Assembly (NCBI RefSeq): GCF_018304825.1
Contig: NZ_CP072648.1
Coordinates: forward strand, 603,501 to 667,500
Source: Chloracidobacterium validum
Lineage (GTDB): Bacteria > Acidobacteriota > Blastocatellia > Chloracidobacteriales > Chloracidobacteriaceae
DNA length: 64,000 nucleotides
Reading direction: 5' to 3'
Under the pieces are notes generated by a model. That model worked only from the letters and a program-made list of their open reading frames with translations. It ran no database searches and was not told the DNA's origin. Position numbers and translations under genes: made by a program. Below, piece after piece: positions 2,392 through 9,382 of the stretch. Position 1 is the first letter of the stretch. Every line of letters begins with the position of its first letter.

Positions 2392-2523
2392 CCTTCACGG
2401 GAGCGCTTGGCTTCCGATAGAGGGCCGTGCTATTGGTTAGGGCTTTGCATCAGTCAGGCGAAAGCAGCTTGGCGAACTGGTGCTACGGCTTGCTTGAGAC
2501 GAACTCAATGCTTGGAGGTTCAC

Positions 2524-3516
2524 ATGGCGACTCCATCGCTCATTCCCACCGTCGTTATCTCTGGTTTTCTTGGAAGTGGTAAGACAACGCTCCTGCTCGC
2601 CCTGTTGCACCACATGCGCAGCTTGGGACGTAAGGCGGCGGTCTTGATGAATGAGTTCGGCGACATCAGCATTGACGGTGAAATCCTTCGCGGCGAAGGC
2701 TTCAGCGTCATGGAACTCAGTGACGGGTGCATCTGTTGCCAGATCGGTGAAGATTTCGTCCAGGCTTTTACTGAGGTTGCATCCCGCAACCCGGAGATTA
2801 TTTTCGTTGAAGCTACGGGATTGGCCGATCCGGTGGACCTTCTGGATCAGGCAACCGCGCCGCATCTGTTGGATCGGGTGACGATTGCCAAAATGGTAAC
2901 AGTGGCCGACCCAAAAAACTTTACCCGCTTGTCAAAAGTGCTCAAAGCCATCGTCAAGCGCCAAACCCAGTTTGCCGATGTCGTCGTGATTAGCAAAGCG
3001 GATGAAGCGACACCGAAGCAGATTGCTGACATTCGAGCATATGTCGAGGAAAACAACCCCCATGCCCCGGTGTATCTGGTGACCAATGGCCAGGTGGCTG
3101 GGGATGAAGAATTCCGGTGGCTCCTGGCGGATGTCGAGCCGGCCGAACGTGAGCGGCGGCGGGCTGCCATGCGAGCCAGTCTGGAGGCGTTGAGCGAGGC
3201 GGACTACAAAGCGCATACCGACTTTCATTCAATGTCCTGCCGATTGTTGCGGCCGTTGGTGCGGTCTCGCTTCGAGCACTTCATGCGGAATCTGCCGTCA
3301 GACATCATTCGAGCCAAGGGGTTTCTCCGGTTTGCGGGAGAAGATGGGCTGTGGGTGATGATGTATGTCAATGGCGACCTCTACATCCGGCCGGTGACCC
3401 TTTCTCCGTCACCAGAGGAGCACTTGGTCTTTATCGGTGCTACACTCGACCATGCGCGACTGGCGAGTGACTTGACGGCCTGCGAAGCGCAGCGGCGCGC
3501 GCTGGCTGTTTTGTAA
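2524..3516 (+). CDS. CobW/COG0523-family GTPase (metal chaperone type)
   Basis: G3E-family P-loop GTPase of the group that inserts or delivers metal ions (zinc or cobalt) to client proteins. It has Walker A 'GFLGSGKTTLL' at residues 11-21, the family metal site 'GCICC' about 50 residues later, a conserved Glu ('FVEATGLADP'), base-binding 'SKAD' and a C-terminal CobW domain. The 330-aa size is typical. The start is the ATG after 'CTTGGAGGTTCAC'; a longer open frame from 2407 lacks support. The true client and metal cannot be read from the neighbours, which are pyk and a TPR gene. Cobalamin, zinc or Mg-chelatase-linked roles all remain possible. Confidence 0.88.
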   Translation: MATPSLIPTVVISGFLGSGKTTLLLALLHHMRSLGRKAAVLMNEFGDISIDGEILRGEGFSVMELSDGCICCQIGEDFVQAFTEVASRNPEIIFVEATGLADPVDLLDQATAPHLLDRVTIAKMVTVADPKNFTRLSKVLKAIVKRQTQFADVVVISKADEATPKQIADIRAYVEENNPHAPVYLVTNGQVAGDEEFRWLLADVEPAERERRRAAMRASLEALSEADYKAHTDFHSMSCRLLRPLVRSRFEHFMRNLPSDIIRAKGFLRFAGEDGLWVMMYVNGDLYIRPVTLSPSPEEHLVFIGATLDHARLASDLTACEAQRRALAVL

Positions 3517-4666: not shown

Positions 4667-4758
4667 ATGATTGACCATCAAAAAATAAACTCACGAAGCT
4701 GCCGAAATCGGCGCACCGTGGCAAATCTGACTCATCGAGTGGGAGAATAAGCAGGAGT

Positions 4759-5100
4759 ATGGCCGAAATGACTCAAACACCCGAATCAGCCGCTGGAGCG
4801 GCACAGACTCAAGACCGGCGTTCATCGGGAGCTGGCAGTGCTGGCCTCCGCCGCGCTGGCGGCGGTGGCGGACGTCCCGGAGGAAACCGCCGCATGGGGC
4901 GTCGCAAAAAACGGTGTCCGCTGCTGGAAGCCAAGATTGACTACATTGACTACAAAGACGTGAAGCTGCTTGAACGGTTTATCGGTGATAACAAGCGCAT
5001 TCTGCCGCGCCGTTTGACCGGCGTGAACACCACCATGCAGCGCCGACTCGCCCGCGCCATCAAGCGCGCCAAGCATCTGGCACTGCTGCCTTACGTCTAA
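4759..5100 (+). CDS. rpsR: Ribosomal protein bS18
   Basis: Small-subunit ribosomal protein. The conserved core runs from 'RRKKRCPLLEAKIDYIDYKD' to the end, with 'RRLTGVNTTMQRRLARAIKRA' as in all S18 proteins. At 113 aa it is longer than the usual 75-90 aa: the first ~48 residues are a Gly/Arg-rich low-complexity extension. The start follows AGCAGGAGT. In many bacteria rpsR sits between rpsF and rplI; neither is next to it here. Confidence 0.96.
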   Translation: MAEMTQTPESAAGAAQTQDRRSSGAGSAGLRRAGGGGGRPGGNRRMGRRKKRCPLLEAKIDYIDYKDVKLLERFIGDNKRILPRRLTGVNTTMQRRLARAIKRAKHLALLPYV

Positions 5101-5142
5101 GCAGAACAACAAGCTGCTAGCAAAACCGTGGCATTGGCTTGG

Positions 5143-5175
5143 GCGCACTGAAGCAACGGGCTGGCTTCAGTGTGC
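5143..5175. terminator. Bidirectional hairpin between rpsR and the BvdR-like gene
   Basis: GCGCACTGAAGC (5143-5154) pairs with GCTTCAGTGTGC (5164-5175) over 12 positions with one G-U pair and a 9-nt loop. It sits between two convergent genes. No long T-run is seen on either side. Confidence 0.6.
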
Positions 5176-5240
5176 CTGAGACTTGGGCCAGGGCAGCATG
5201 GTCCCGATGAAGAAGCCGCTCTGGTCAGGTGGCGAGTGGG

Positions 5241-6236
5241 TTAAGCGGTAGAGGGCGACAAGACAATCCGCTGTCCGCTTTTGACAGCGCGTTCAGCCGC
5301 ATCCGCAAAGCGCAGGGTTTCGAGCACATGGTTGAGCGCGGCGTATGGCCGCCCCTGCCCGGCAATGGTGTCGAGAAAGACGGCAATATCTTGTGCGAAG
5401 AGTCCGCTTCGGGGCATGACTGGCAGCGCCTCAAAGCTGTTGCCCGTTGGGTTGGCGTACCAGACCTCACGATGCTGCTTCCCCACCAATGCGCCCTGTT
5501 CGCCAGTGACCTGAAATTCCGCGGACGGTCCGGTTTCAGGCTCTGATGTGAGAATATCTTCGATCTCACCCACGCCCTCCTTGCCAAACCCAAAGCGTAG
5601 GCGGGTGGCGCGGCGTCCGAAGCGCGTGCCTTGCTCTCCAAGGAACGTCTCTTCGCCCTCAATCCACGTTGCTTGTCCAACACAGGTGATGATGCGGCTG
5701 GGGAGGCTGGCCTGCTGGAAGAGTGAAAAGCCGTGGGCGCGGTCATAGGTCCAGTCTTCGGGCGTGGCTGCGCGGTGACTGAGGTTGTGCCACGTGAGGT
5801 GGTGTAACTGCCCCAGGCGAGGCAGGGCATCCCGCAGCGTGACGAACCAGGCGGAGAGCAACTCGATGTGTTCGACGTGGAGCACCACCCCACGGGACTG
5901 GGCAAGTTCGACGAGCCCTTCAGCTTCGGCCAATGACAACGCGAGCGGGTAATCAACACTGACCGGCTTACCGGCTTCGATGGAAGCCCTGACCATCGGC
6001 GCATGGTACGGGTTGGTGGAACACACCATGACCGCATCCACATCCCGACGGGCAATCGCCTCTTCCCACTCATCGGTTGCCGCTGCCGCAATGGGAAATG
6101 CCAGCTCGTAGGCGCGGTCAAAGTTGCGCGAGGCCACGACCGCCACTCGCGTGTCGTAGCGTTCGTTGAGTTCACGCAAGCGGGCGCGCGCGACACGCCC
6201 GCTCCCCAAAATCGCAATGCCAAGCACGGTCGGCAT
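5241..6236 (-). CDS. Gfo/Idh/MocA-fold oxidoreductase resembling cyanobacterial biliverdin reductase
   Basis: NAD(P)-dependent oxidoreductase of 331 aa. The N-terminal Rossmann domain has 'GIAILGSGRVA'; 'DYPLALSLAEAE' and 'VLHVEHIELL' follow, then 'DWTYDRAHGFSLF' and, near the C-terminus, 'GLFAQDIAVFLDTI'. From memory, this order closely matches cyanobacterial BvdR, which reduces biliverdin to bilirubin; other Gfo/Idh enzymes act on sugars and lack the VEHIELL segment. The start is the ATG at 6236, spaced for the GAGGT that overlaps the acsF stop; a GTG two codons upstream touches that site. The gene is 9 bases behind acsF and surely co-transcribed, which supports a tetrapyrrole substrate. 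The fold is certain, the substrate inferred. Confidence 0.75.
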   Translation of the reverse strand: MPTVLGIAILGSGRVARARLRELNERYDTRVAVVASRNFDRAYELAFPIAAAATDEWEEAIARRDVDAVMVCSTNPYHAPMVRASIEAGKPVSVDYPLALSLAEAEGLVELAQSRGVVLHVEHIELLSAWFVTLRDALPRLGQLHHLTWHNLSHRAATPEDWTYDRAHGFSLFQQASLPSRIITCVGQATWIEGEETFLGEQGTRFGRRATRLRFGFGKEGVGEIEDILTSEPETGPSAEFQVTGEQGALVGKQHREVWYANPTGNSFEALPVMPRSGLFAQDIAVFLDTIAGQGRPYAALNHVLETLRFADAAERAVKSGQRIVLSPSTA

Positions 6237-6245
6237 TGTCACACC

Positions 6246-7346
6246 TCAAGCCATGGCTGGTTCAGCGCCGTGCTTGACCGAACAACCTTTGATGATCGGG
6301 GCCACGGGATAGTCTGGAATGGGTGGCGGAGCGTCTTTGCGGACCTTCATCATGAAAAGCCGCAGGTAGTCCACGCCCATGGCAGCCTTCATTGGCGCGA
6401 GCGCCAGCTTGCCAGCCCCAGAGGCTTCGCGTTCGGTCATCTTGGTGTAGCGTTCGGCCATGCGGTCCAGAATTTGAATGAACTGCGGATGATCGACGTC
6501 AAGCCGGAGTCCAAAGACGCGCTGGGCGTAGGCATTGGTTTCGCGGATGACCTTCAGATCATATTCTCGCCAGTTCATGCCAATCGAGGCGTAAAAGTCC
6601 TGCGCCTTGAGGTCGCGCAGCCACATGGTCACATAGACGGCCAGCGAGAAGAAGCGAATGAGCAGCCGGTTGACGCCGCCATCCAGGTAGAGGTTCTTCT
6701 GCGCTTCGAGCTGAAGACCGATGAAGTCGCCATGCTTGAGTTCATCCTGGCACCAGCCACCGAAGTACTTGAAAATCGGATGGTAGCGGTGTTCCGGGTG
6801 CGCCTGGAGGTGGGAATAAATGTTGATGTAGCGGAAATAACCGATGACCTCCGAGAGGTACGTCGTGTAGAGAATGATCTTCGGGTGCATGCTGACGAAT
6901 TCTTTTTCGCCCTGGAGTAACTGTAGATCGAGGTCTGCGCTGATGTCGCGCATGGCCAAGCGGATGAAGCCGCTGTGCCGTCCTTCATCGCGGGCCATCA
7001 ACCGGTAGGTATCGCTGAGGATGGGGTCTTCAATCCGTTCGGCGATCTCTTTGTAGAGCAACGCGCCTGAAAACTCGCCCAAACAGCCACGGATGAGAAA
7101 TTCCTTGAATGATGCCGGAAGTTTGGAGAAGTCCTGGTCGAAGTCAGGATCGTCATCGCGCTTGAAGAAATGCTTGTTCGGGTCGTCGGCAAACCGCTTG
7201 TGCATGGCTTTGAACGCATCCGCCATGTGGTCAAAGCGCAGGGCATTCATCTTTTTATAGTCGGTGACATAAAAACGCGGACTAATCAGGCTCTTGTCCG
7301 CCGCGGCAGCCTTTGTGTCTTGAATGACCGATTCCGTAGCAATCAT
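6246..7346 (-). CDS. acsF: Aerobic Mg-protoporphyrin IX monomethyl ester cyclase
   Basis: Di-iron enzyme that closes the fifth (E) ring in (bacterio)chlorophyll synthesis using O2. It is 366 aa, like other AcsF/CHL27 proteins. The iron ligands are visible in the family order: 'LGEFSGALLYKE', 'ARDEGRHSGF' and 'CQDELKHGDF'. 'SPRFYVTDYKKM' near the N-terminus is also typical. The start is the ATG at 7346, 9 nt after GAGG; a GTG at 7361 would overlap that site. It is the first gene of a two-gene unit with the BvdR-like reductase, and a 23-bp dyad lies upstream. It is the strongest evidence that the host makes chlorophylls under oxic conditions. Confidence 0.95.
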   Translation of the reverse strand: MIATESVIQDTKAAAADKSLISPRFYVTDYKKMNALRFDHMADAFKAMHKRFADDPNKHFFKRDDDPDFDQDFSKLPASFKEFLIRGCLGEFSGALLYKEIAERIEDPILSDTYRLMARDEGRHSGFIRLAMRDISADLDLQLLQGEKEFVSMHPKIILYTTYLSEVIGYFRYINIYSHLQAHPEHRYHPIFKYFGGWCQDELKHGDFIGLQLEAQKNLYLDGGVNRLLIRFFSLAVYVTMWLRDLKAQDFYASIGMNWREYDLKVIRETNAYAQRVFGLRLDVDHPQFIQILDRMAERYTKMTEREASGAGKLALAPMKAAMGVDYLRLFMMKVRKDAPPPIPDYPVAPIIKGCSVKHGAEPAMA

Positions 7347-7374
7347 GGGGCACGACCTCACAGAGGAACCAAAG

Positions 7375-7397
7375 TGGAAGTCGAAACTTCGTTTCCA
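7375..7397 (-). promoter_or_regulatory. Imperfect dyad upstream of acsF
   Basis: TGGAAG..CGAA and TTCG..TTTCCA form nested inverted repeats around a central AC dinucleotide, 29-51 bases before the acsF start in the 119-bp lepB-acsF gap. It could be an operator or a leader hairpin. No regulator gene is adjacent. Confidence 0.35.
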
Positions 7398-7465
7398 ACC
7401 TACTTTGCGGCGGCCCGGATTTGAAACGGAATTTTGGACAGATGCCCCGTTTGGGCGTTTGACAG

Positions 7466-8314
7466 CTATTTCACCAGCGCGCCCAGCCGTTTCCAGCGTC
7501 CCTTGGAAAAAAACGATCCCAGTCGTTCACCCAGGGAAGCGTGAGGGCTGGGGTCAAACGAGGCATAGACGAACAGCGGGCGTCCGATGACGTGGTCGCG
7601 CGGAACTGGCCCCCAGTACCGGCTGTCCAGGCTGTTGTCGCGGTTGTCTCCCATGGCGAAGTAGCAGCCTTCGGGAATTTTGAACGGCCGGCCAATGCCG
7701 TAGTGGGGTTCATTTTTGTAGTCGCGGTAGCGTCCACTCGGCAGCGGAACCTCGGCGAGCGGCTCATCTTCCCGATCGTCGTACTCGAAGTCTGAGCCGG
7801 GGCGGTAGTACACGTTCCACTGCGCTCCCTCGGCCGGATATTCTTCGAGAACGTTCAGGCGTCCGCCATCGGTCAGATCGTTTTCAGCAATGATGCGAGT
7901 TTCAGGCAACTCTTTGCCGTCAATGTAAACGCGCTGACCGCGAATCTCTATCGTTTCACCGGGGAGACCGATGACGCGCTTGACGTAGTTCTGGTCCTCG
8001 CTTTGTGGGAACTTGAACACGACGATGTCGCCACGCCGAATCGGTCGGTGTGGCGTGAAACCATCCAGTGGAAGGCCGCCTTCGTAGCCGAAGATGAATT
8101 TGTTGACGAGTAAAAAGTCCCCTGAATAAATCGCATTGTTCATCGAGCCGGTCGGGACGTTGACCGACCGCACAACGAAGGTAATCCCAAACAACGCCAT
8201 AATCAGCGTCGTGATGATCATCTCGACGAACTCCCGCAGCTCAGAACGCTTGGGTCGGCTCGTTTCCAGGCTTTCTTCTGGCTTGGTGGTGGTCGTGTTG
8301 TCTGCCATGGACAA
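7466..8314 (-). CDS. lepB: Signal peptidase I
   Basis: Membrane serine protease that removes signal peptides from exported proteins. One transmembrane helix (residues ~30-48) is followed by the nucleophile in 'VPTGSMNNAI', the general-base lysine in 'YVKRVIGLPGE' and the 'GDNRDNSLDSR' box. The 282-aa length is normal, with an insertion of about 40 residues rich in acidic and aromatic residues before 'FAMGDNRDN'. The start is TTG at 8314, 7 nt after GAGG; the ATG at 8308 is possible but leaves 13 nt. The gene follows ychF by 9 bases, so the two are probably one transcript. Confidence 0.95.
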   Translation of the reverse strand: MSMADNTTTTKPEESLETSRPKRSELREFVEMIITTLIMALFGITFVVRSVNVPTGSMNNAIYSGDFLLVNKFIFGYEGGLPLDGFTPHRPIRRGDIVVFKFPQSEDQNYVKRVIGLPGETIEIRGQRVYIDGKELPETRIIAENDLTDGGRLNVLEEYPAEGAQWNVYYRPGSDFEYDDREDEPLAEVPLPSGRYRDYKNEPHYGIGRPFKIPEGCYFAMGDNRDNSLDSRYWGPVPRDHVIGRPLFVYASFDPSPHASLGERLGSFFSKGRWKRLGALVK

Positions 8315-8323
8315 AGCGATGCC

Positions 8324-9382
8324 TCAGACGTTGAAGCGAAAATGAATGATGTCTCCATCCTGAACGACGTAGTCCTTGCCTTCGAGCCGGAGCTTGCCAG
8401 CTTCCTTGCACTTGGACTCAGACCCGTAGGTGATGAAGTCCGCATAAGCAATGACTTCGGCCCGAATGAAGCCGCGTTCGATGTCGGAGTGAATTTTACC
8501 TGCCGCGCGCTGGGCTTTCGTGCCCCGTTGGATGGGCCAGGCCCGACACTCATCTTCTCCGGCAGTGAGAAAGCTCATCAGGTCGAGCAACCCATAGGCC
8601 GCGACGATAAAGCGGTCACGCGCTGGAGCGGTTAGCCCCAAGTCCCGGAGGAAGTCCCCCTGTTCTTCCGGCGCAAGCTGGGCAATATCCATCTCGGCCT
8701 GCCCACACATGGCGACGGTCGTCGGAATGGCGCGTCCCTGGGCAGCTTCCTGGACGGATGCCGGCACGCCGGCGCTGATGTCGGCTTCGGGTACGTTGAG
8801 CAAAATCATCTGCGGTTTGAGCGAAAGAAAACGAAATCCGGTCATCAAGTGCCGTTCTTCGTCATCAAAGTCAAGCGTTCGCAACGCTTGCTCGGCTTCG
8901 AGCGCGGCTTTGCACCGTTCAAACAAGTCGCGTTCACGCGGTGTTGCCTTTGGTTCTTTTTTGAGCCGCGTGAGACGGTTTTCAACCTGAATCAAATCCG
9001 ACAGGATGAGTTCCGCGTCAAAAGCGGCAATGTCGGCGGACGGATCGCTTGGGCGAGTTCCCAGCGGATCGGGAAACGCCCGAACGACGTGCGCCAGCGC
9101 GTCCACATCGCGCATGGCCGCAACCAGCTTGGCGTCGAGGCCGGCTGAACCGCCTTGTTCCGTTGGGCCGGCCACGTCAACAAATGCCACTTCGGCGTAG
9201 GTTCGTTTCTTCGTCCGATAGATGTTGCCCAGGGTATCCACGCGGGCGTCCGGCACCTTGATGTTCCCCAGGTTGGGGCGGTCTTTGGCGCCGTAGCCGC
9301 CGACTTCTGCCGTCAGCCCGGTCAGGGCGTTGAAAACCGTTGTTTTACCGGCACCGGCAAAGCCGACGATGCCCACTTTCAT
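8324..9382 (-). CDS. ychF: Ribosome-binding ATPase YchF/OLA1
   Basis: Obg-related P-loop NTPase that binds ribosomes and uses ATP rather than GTP. The P-loop 'GFAGAGKTT' begins at residue 7. The base-recognition motif is NxxE ('NVPEAD') in place of NKxD, the hallmark of YchF. The C-terminal TGS-like domain ends 'YVVQDGDIIHFRFNV'. At 352 aa it is slightly shorter than the usual ~363. It is the first gene upstream of lepB, with a 9-base gap. Confidence 0.95.
   Translation of the reverse strand: MKVGIVGFAGAGKTTVFNALTGLTAEVGGYGAKDRPNLGNIKVPDARVDTLGNIYRTKKRTYAEVAFVDVAGPTEQGGSAGLDAKLVAAMRDVDALAHVVRAFPDPLGTRPSDPSADIAAFDAELILSDLIQVENRLTRLKKEPKATPRERDLFERCKAALEAEQALRTLDFDDEERHLMTGFRFLSLKPQMILLNVPEADISAGVPASVQEAAQGRAIPTTVAMCGQAEMDIAQLAPEEQGDFLRDLGLTAPARDRFIVAAYGLLDLMSFLTAGEDECRAWPIQRGTKAQRAAGKIHSDIERGFIRAEVIAYADFITYGSESKCKEAGKLRLEGKDYVVQDGDIIHFRFNV

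Follow-up and report, generated by a model that had tools for sequence, protein, structure and literature searches.

Chloracidobacterium is a hot-spring phototroph that uses Zn-bacteriochlorophyll. In a stretch of 64,000 nucleotides from C. validum (contig NZ_CP072648.1, positions 603,501 to 667,500; the whole stretch is referred to here as the window), acsF, the gene of the aerobic chlorophyll cyclase, is followed by a gene whose product resembles the cyanobacterial biliverdin reductase BvdR. Biliverdin reductases turn a green bile pigment yellow (biliverdin to bilirubin), and acsF serves an oxygen-dependent ring closure.

The acsF locus

acsF is located on the minus strand at 6246-7346 and encodes 366 aa. 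The product passed the TIGR02029 equivalog model (332.7 bits, cut-off 192.5) and scored 362.1 bits against NF010172, which is below that model's own cut-off of 391. acsF lies upstream, and nine bases separate its stop codon from the ATG of a 331-codon gene at 5241-6236, also on the minus strand. The stop codon and the gap (6237-6248, minus strand) include a GAGG run, the candidate ribosome site of the 331-aa protein, which overlaps the acsF stop codon (TTGAGGTGTGACAATG). A Gfo/Idh reductase gene behind acsF, with a nine-base gap and a ribosome site shared with the stop region, had been proposed from the letters of the sequence, and the coordinates, the gap and the overlap were confirmed. Judged by this spacing, it is plausible that the two genes are carried on one transcript. 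A scan of positions 4700-8500 gave no promoter-like sites (1.3 expected) and four terminator-like sites (4.1 expected).

Sequence and predicted fold of the 331-aa protein

Pfam searches assigned the N-terminal half of the protein to PF01408, the Gfo/Idh nucleotide-binding domain (76.5 bits), with PF03807 barely above its cut-off in the same half, and the nucleotide-binding glycines are conserved. None of the 13 NCBIfam models listed for the protein reached its cut-off. The top sequence match in the PDB was Synechocystis BvdR (residues 4-317, E 4.7e-25), followed by mammalian biliverdin reductase A (residues 5-137), which is similar in the VEYP and VLHEEHVELL segments. The three segments on which the likeness to BvdR had originally been proposed are all present, as LHVEHIELL (119-127), DWTYDRAHGF (161-170) and GLFAQD (278-283), and HVEHIELL (codons 120-127; 5856-5879, minus strand) is common to Synechocystis BvdR. 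By sequence comparison the resemblance to BvdR is far above chance, and the BvdR proteins proved to be the nearest characterised relatives as well as the nearest solved structures.

An AlphaFold2 model generated from 28 sequences (mean pLDDT 95.5) predicted a two-domain Gfo/Idh fold of the BVR type, alike over its full length to Synechocystis BvdR (5b3t, 5b3u and 5b3v). Foldseek ranks 1-5 with this model were all BvdR chains (5b3v_B, TMq 0.90). VIA-align superimposed 5b3v_B with Z 39.3 and an rmsd of 1.7 over 313 residues at ∼24% identity, and this closed-form BvdR was 3.7 Z units ahead of the best non-BvdR entry (Z 35.6). Apo BvdR (5b3t_A) ranked under several unrelated Gfo/Idh enzymes at Z 33.6, so the lead of BvdR in fold rests on the closed forms; among the matches listed, the best 50 structures all had Z >31.

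Phylogenetic position

A tree was constructed from 62 rows, comprising 11 acidobacterial orthologues, 22 cyanobacterial BvdR sequences (BvdR was found in 19 of 59 genomes), 18 other bacterial BVR-like sequences, two partial mammalian sequences and nine Gfo/Idh proteins. The non-cyanobacterial relatives were retrieved by two peptide patterns that include HxEHIE, and this segment is therefore common to them by construction; the column of the catalytic arginine lies outside both patterns. Four of the 31 pattern loci (L079, L091, L092 and L093) were too short or incomplete and entered neither the residue table nor the tree, and L114 was dropped as a copy of L071. Locus L066, which seems to be identical to L034, comes from a MAG titled Actinomycetota; its scaffold is named Acidobacteria and G008 is assigned to the family of the window's genome, and the title is probably wrong.

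The BVR-side rows, including the acidobacterial ones, were split from the nine Gfo/Idh rows with support of 99/96, and the acidobacterial orthologues formed a single clade (100/99) that grouped with the delta and mammalian rows (93/61). Forcing this clade outside all arginine-bearing relatives cost 0.47 log units (p-AU 0.42), and forcing it to join the cyanobacteria gave a p-AU of 0.24; the clade may either have lost the catalytic arginine or have diverged before this residue appeared. Placement together with five of the nine Gfo/Idh rows, for which 'sugar-type' is our own label, was rejected (p-AU 0.0003). The tree, proposed in the original prediction as a check, thus kept the reductase apart from the sugar-type rows. 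Codon 96 (Tyr, in DYP; 5949-5951, minus strand) occupies the column of the EKP lysine, which was Lys in 9/9 Gfo/Idh rows and Tyr, again as DYP, in 11/11 orthologues; Synechocystis BvdR likewise has Tyr in place of this lysine, and the 18 other bacterial relatives have Tyr in seven cases and Phe in 11. A sugar dehydrogenase was ruled out by this position (Tyr96) and by the AU test.

The other bacterial relatives (L072-L090) are uncharacterised. They form a broad BVR-like group, mostly from Deltaproteobacteria and Myxococcota records (12 of the 18 rows come from records titled Deltaproteobacteria or Myxococcota/Myxococcales), and have the equivalent of Arg188 of BvdR in 16 of 18 rows. They resemble the acidobacterial proteins in falling on the same side of the tree against the Gfo/Idh rows and in the HxEHIE and LF..D segments, but are 263-311 aa as trimmed and differ at the catalytic position described below.

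Absence of the catalytic arginine

Codon 178 of the window gene, CTC (Leu; 5703-5705, minus strand), aligns with Arg185 of Synechocystis BvdR, which Takao and colleagues describe as essential and completely conserved among BVR homologues, with R171 in rat and R172 in human as the mammalian counterparts (PMC5309722). In the 62-row alignment this column contained Leu in four, Val in five and Ile in two of the 11 acidobacterial orthologues and Arg in none, whereas Arg was present in 22/22 cyanobacterial, 18/18 other bacterial and 2/2 mammalian rows; among the Gfo/Idh rows Arg occurred in one of nine (L014). The register of the column is anchored by Gly169 and Gly187, with nine residues on either side and no gaps, and these two positions are Gly in 11/11 orthologues and in 22 and 20, respectively, of the 22 cyanobacterial rows.

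In Table 2 of the BvdR study, kcat/Km is 3.9 in the wild type and falls to 0.1 in R185A and 0.07 in R185K, and the main text gives about 0.25% (PMC5309722). The R185A protein still bound two biliverdins and had slight activity left; mutants R188A, K237A and R246A were active, and Ala mutants of His84 and Asp287 lost most of their activity (PMC5309722).

The remainder of the pocket is partly retained. Codon 181, CGC (Arg; 5694-5696, minus strand), is aligned with the propionate-binding Arg188 of BvdR, and the equivalents of Tyr102, His84, Arg188, Trp168, Thr169 and Asp287 are kept in 11/11 orthologues; the His84 column contains Arg in three of the 22 cyanobacterial rows. Arg167 of BvdR is replaced by Asp161 in the 331-aa protein. 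K237 and R246, which are near the distal bilin in BvdR, are absent from the acidobacterial orthologues, but this is no defining feature, as the 18 further bacterial sequences lack them as well. Among the residues that are invariant in the acidobacterial clade and rare elsewhere are Arg155, Asp161, Arg209, F131, W149, F173 and W191; either of the two arginines might conceivably stand in for Arg185. Loss of BvdR pocket residues had been named in the original prediction as an outcome that would speak against it, and this outcome was observed in part, with Arg185, K237 and R246 absent and Tyr102, His84, Arg188 and Asp287 kept. As the essential arginine is absent, the reductase probably differs from the biliverdin reductases in the pigment it acts on or in how it works, and despite its BvdR-like make-up the protein was not classed as one of them.

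Distribution, linkage to acsF and selection

Orthologues of the 331-aa gene (E <1e-70) were found in 11 of 39 genomes, C. validum included. acsF was above cut-off in eight of the 39, among them all seven Chloracidobacterium genomes, and in 8/8 of these acsF-bearing genomes, our own again included, the reductase gene was directly 3' of acsF on the same strand. The gap between the two genes is 1 to 11 bases within the genus, with the acsF-proximal ATG used as the start in G002, and 137 bases in the eighth genome, G008, which belongs to the same family as the genome of the window. Surrounding genes are conserved too in all seven Chloracidobacterium genomes, which therefore count as a single context; G008 provides the second and last one in which the linkage is seen. 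acsF and the reductase gene are the sole genes on the G008 contig with a match in the window's first 16 kb, and a chance neighbourhood of the two is therefore unlikely, although this contig is just 5,570 bases long and starts 273 bases ahead of the acsF frame.

The remaining three carriers, G009, G011 and G013, have orthologues at 43-46% identity, and neither acsF nor bchL was found above cut-off in these genomes. A candidate AcsF-like partner in G011 was rejected, the weak TIGR02029 match (E 5e-5) lying in what we read as a 282-aa ferritin-like protein; G013 also gave a hit. The linkage to acsF on which the original prediction depended held in every acsF-bearing genome, but three of 11 carriers without acsF or bchL above cut-off speak against a role tied only to acsF. 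In a wider set of 396 Acidobacteriota genomes the gene was found in five at E 1e-25 or better, none of them new, and within these searches the reductase clade was confined to Chloracidobacterium and a small number of other acidobacteria from its order. For 21 of the non-cyanobacterial relatives, clustering by gene neighbourhood was uninformative, ORFs being poorly resolved in the high-GC DNA.

Comparison by NG86 of the window gene with those of the six other Chloracidobacterium genomes gave dN/dS of 0.08-0.11 with dS >1.3; the value was 0.08 between G001 and G005 and 0.27 between the window gene and G008. Purifying selection on the reductase gene is clear.

The use of acsF within the genus is described differently in the accessible portions of two reports, one stating that AcsF and BchE can both be used by all strains (PMC8245765) and the other, at odds with it, that acsF is missing from most C. 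aggregatum strains (PMC12816986).

Bilin metabolism in the carrier genomes

A canonical heme oxygenase (PF01126) was found in none of the seven Chloracidobacterium genomes, unlike the setting of Synechocystis BvdR, and in none of the carriers G008, G009, G011 and G013; it was present in three of the 39 genomes, none of which carries the reductase gene. Published work on Chloracidobacterium likewise notes that its pre-PcyA gene cluster contains no heme oxygenase (PMC10151467). PF01126 was also found in 0/21 genomes of non-cyanobacterial BVR-like relatives, mostly MAGs listed without a completeness value, and as 18 of these 21 relatives keep the arginine, a missing heme oxygenase is by itself a poor guide to the substrate. 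Among possible substitutes, Haem_oxygenas_2 (PF14518) occurred in 4 of 15 genomes (G007, G012, G013 and G014), with none in the genus; the only reductase carrier with it was G013, G011 being without it. The ABM/IsdG family (PF03992) occurred in 11/15 genomes and in 11/14 controls, and is too common everywhere to be informative; a non-canonical enzyme that opens heme may therefore exist in these genomes.

The bilin reductase family PF05996 was detected in 10 of 39 genomes, namely all seven of the genus, G008, G009 and G012, with the match above cut-off in six of the seven genus genomes and below it in G006; carriers G011 and G013 had no PF05996 match. A profile of six PF05996 proteins had solved ferredoxin-bilin reductases as its best match, which was weak (E 0.0018). 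In C. validum the PF05996 bilin-reductase-like gene lies outside the window (L056, 9241-9999, plus strand), and the gene that follows it encodes a V4R-like protein, a label taken from PMC10151467. Phytochrome was considered as a bilin user, and its PHY domain (PF00360) was found in 0/15 genomes.

Possible function of the reductase

These data appear to suggest a constrained NAD(P)H reductase that stands beside the BvdR family, with a tetrapyrrole other than biliverdin as its substrate or with another mode of action. We would give this reading, which is drawn from sequence comparisons and a predicted model, a probability of roughly 0.4. The substrate would be a tetrapyrrole, most likely with an open chain, in which a bridging carbon receives the hydride of NAD(P)H. 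It may be held by one propionate through Arg181, as by Arg188 in BvdR, and a proton would have to come from a source other than Arg185. Without that arginine the proton would be delivered differently and one of the contacts to a propionate would change, which would fit a substrate with another carboxylate pattern. In the phototrophs the protein may be made together with AcsF and plausibly handles an oxidised tetrapyrrole arising during the O2-dependent ring closure; as orthologues occur in genomes without acsF, the basic chemistry is probably not confined to chlorophyll. Synechococcus 7002 without BvdR is described as having less chlorophyll and more ROS (PMC10608806), and by fair analogy with that phenotype the Chloracidobacterium reductase could have a protective role.

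A closer association with the cyclase, in which the protein would be a partner of AcsF acting on a cyclic Mg-tetrapyrrole and would reduce or remove a ring-closure intermediate that is over-oxidised or incomplete, appears unlikely. Mg-protoporphyrin monomethyl ester has one free propionate, and a pocket changed from two propionates to one, with R185, R246 and K237 of BvdR absent and R188 and T169 kept, would suit it. The clade-fixed aromatics F131, W149, F173 and W191, rare in other rows, and the 8/8 linkage, kept in a second genus where only these two genes match, point the same way, but the orthologues of G009, G011 and G013, in genomes without acsF or bchL above cut-off, show the same missing arginine. 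A 2026 review moreover gives AcsF as the sole cyclase component in Acidobacteria, and the cyclase assay there draws its electrons from NADPH, ferredoxin and FNR (PMC13297055). It is unlikely, too, that the protein is a Gfo/Idh oxidoreductase with a non-tetrapyrrole substrate, its BvdR likeness being ancestral and the acsF neighbourhood incidental. The Gfo/Idh families are large, Pfam covers the nucleotide-binding half only, the Z values of the best 50 structures listed are uniformly high, and carriers exist without bchL above cut-off and without PF01126; against this, the EKP lysine is replaced by tyrosine in 11/11 orthologues, closed-form BvdR leads by 3.7 Z units, and placement of the clade inside the five sugar-type rows was rejected.

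A working biliverdin reductase with another proton donor, making bilirubin as an antioxidant as proposed for cyanobacteria, is quite doubtful. Its overall fold and the Tyr102, His84, Asp287 and Arg188 equivalents would be in place, R185A shows that binding of two biliverdins and slight activity can outlast the arginine, and a PF05996 gene is present in the genus; yet the complete conservation of Arg185 in BVR homologues, the fall in kcat/Km in both Arg185 mutants and the lack of PF01126 heme oxygenase from the seven genomes and the pre-PcyA gene cluster stand against it. More doubtful again is a non-catalytic protein that binds a tetrapyrrole or NADPH and tunes AcsF or tetrapyrrole flux, for while a missing catalytic arginine with retained binding features and purifying selection would agree with this, a binder would not need all that is retained, namely the glycines for nucleotide binding together with the counterparts of His84, Asp287 and Tyr102.

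A more speculative reading, which we consider improbable as it stands, is that an arginine-less branch of the BVR fold was recruited to reduce tetrapyrroles of the chlorophyll branch with NAD(P)H, that it holds each of them by one propionate and that it serves AcsF directly. If true, the aerobic cyclase would have a partner that has so far gone unnoticed, in an anoxygenic phototroph in which no canonical heme oxygenase was found. In more general terms, a constrained arginine-less relative after acsF points to an undescribed tetrapyrrole reduction or to another proton delivery in this fold, and the reductase offers a specific starting point for asking which bilin-type chemistry Chloracidobacterium performs.

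Comparison with known systems

The BvdR fold and family are known; what is new, on the sequence evidence, is an arginine-less BvdR-like reductase after acsF. A literature search that covered few subscription journals found, in the text accessible to it, no description of an acsF-linked BvdR-related gene. The cyanobacterial chlAII(acsFII)-ho2-hemN cluster is similar in that acsF is beside a bilin-pathway gene, but the partner there is a heme oxygenase and in Chloracidobacterium a BvdR-like reductase (PMC4500134). The likeness to the auxiliary AcsF subunits Ycf54, described as a 12.5 kDa protein (PMC13297055), and BciE is a functional analogy only.

Also near acsF, at 2407-3516 of the window on the plus strand, is a gene encoding a protein with the P-loop GFLGSGKTT and a CICC motif, motifs which we take to recall the COG0523/CobW metal chaperone GTPases.
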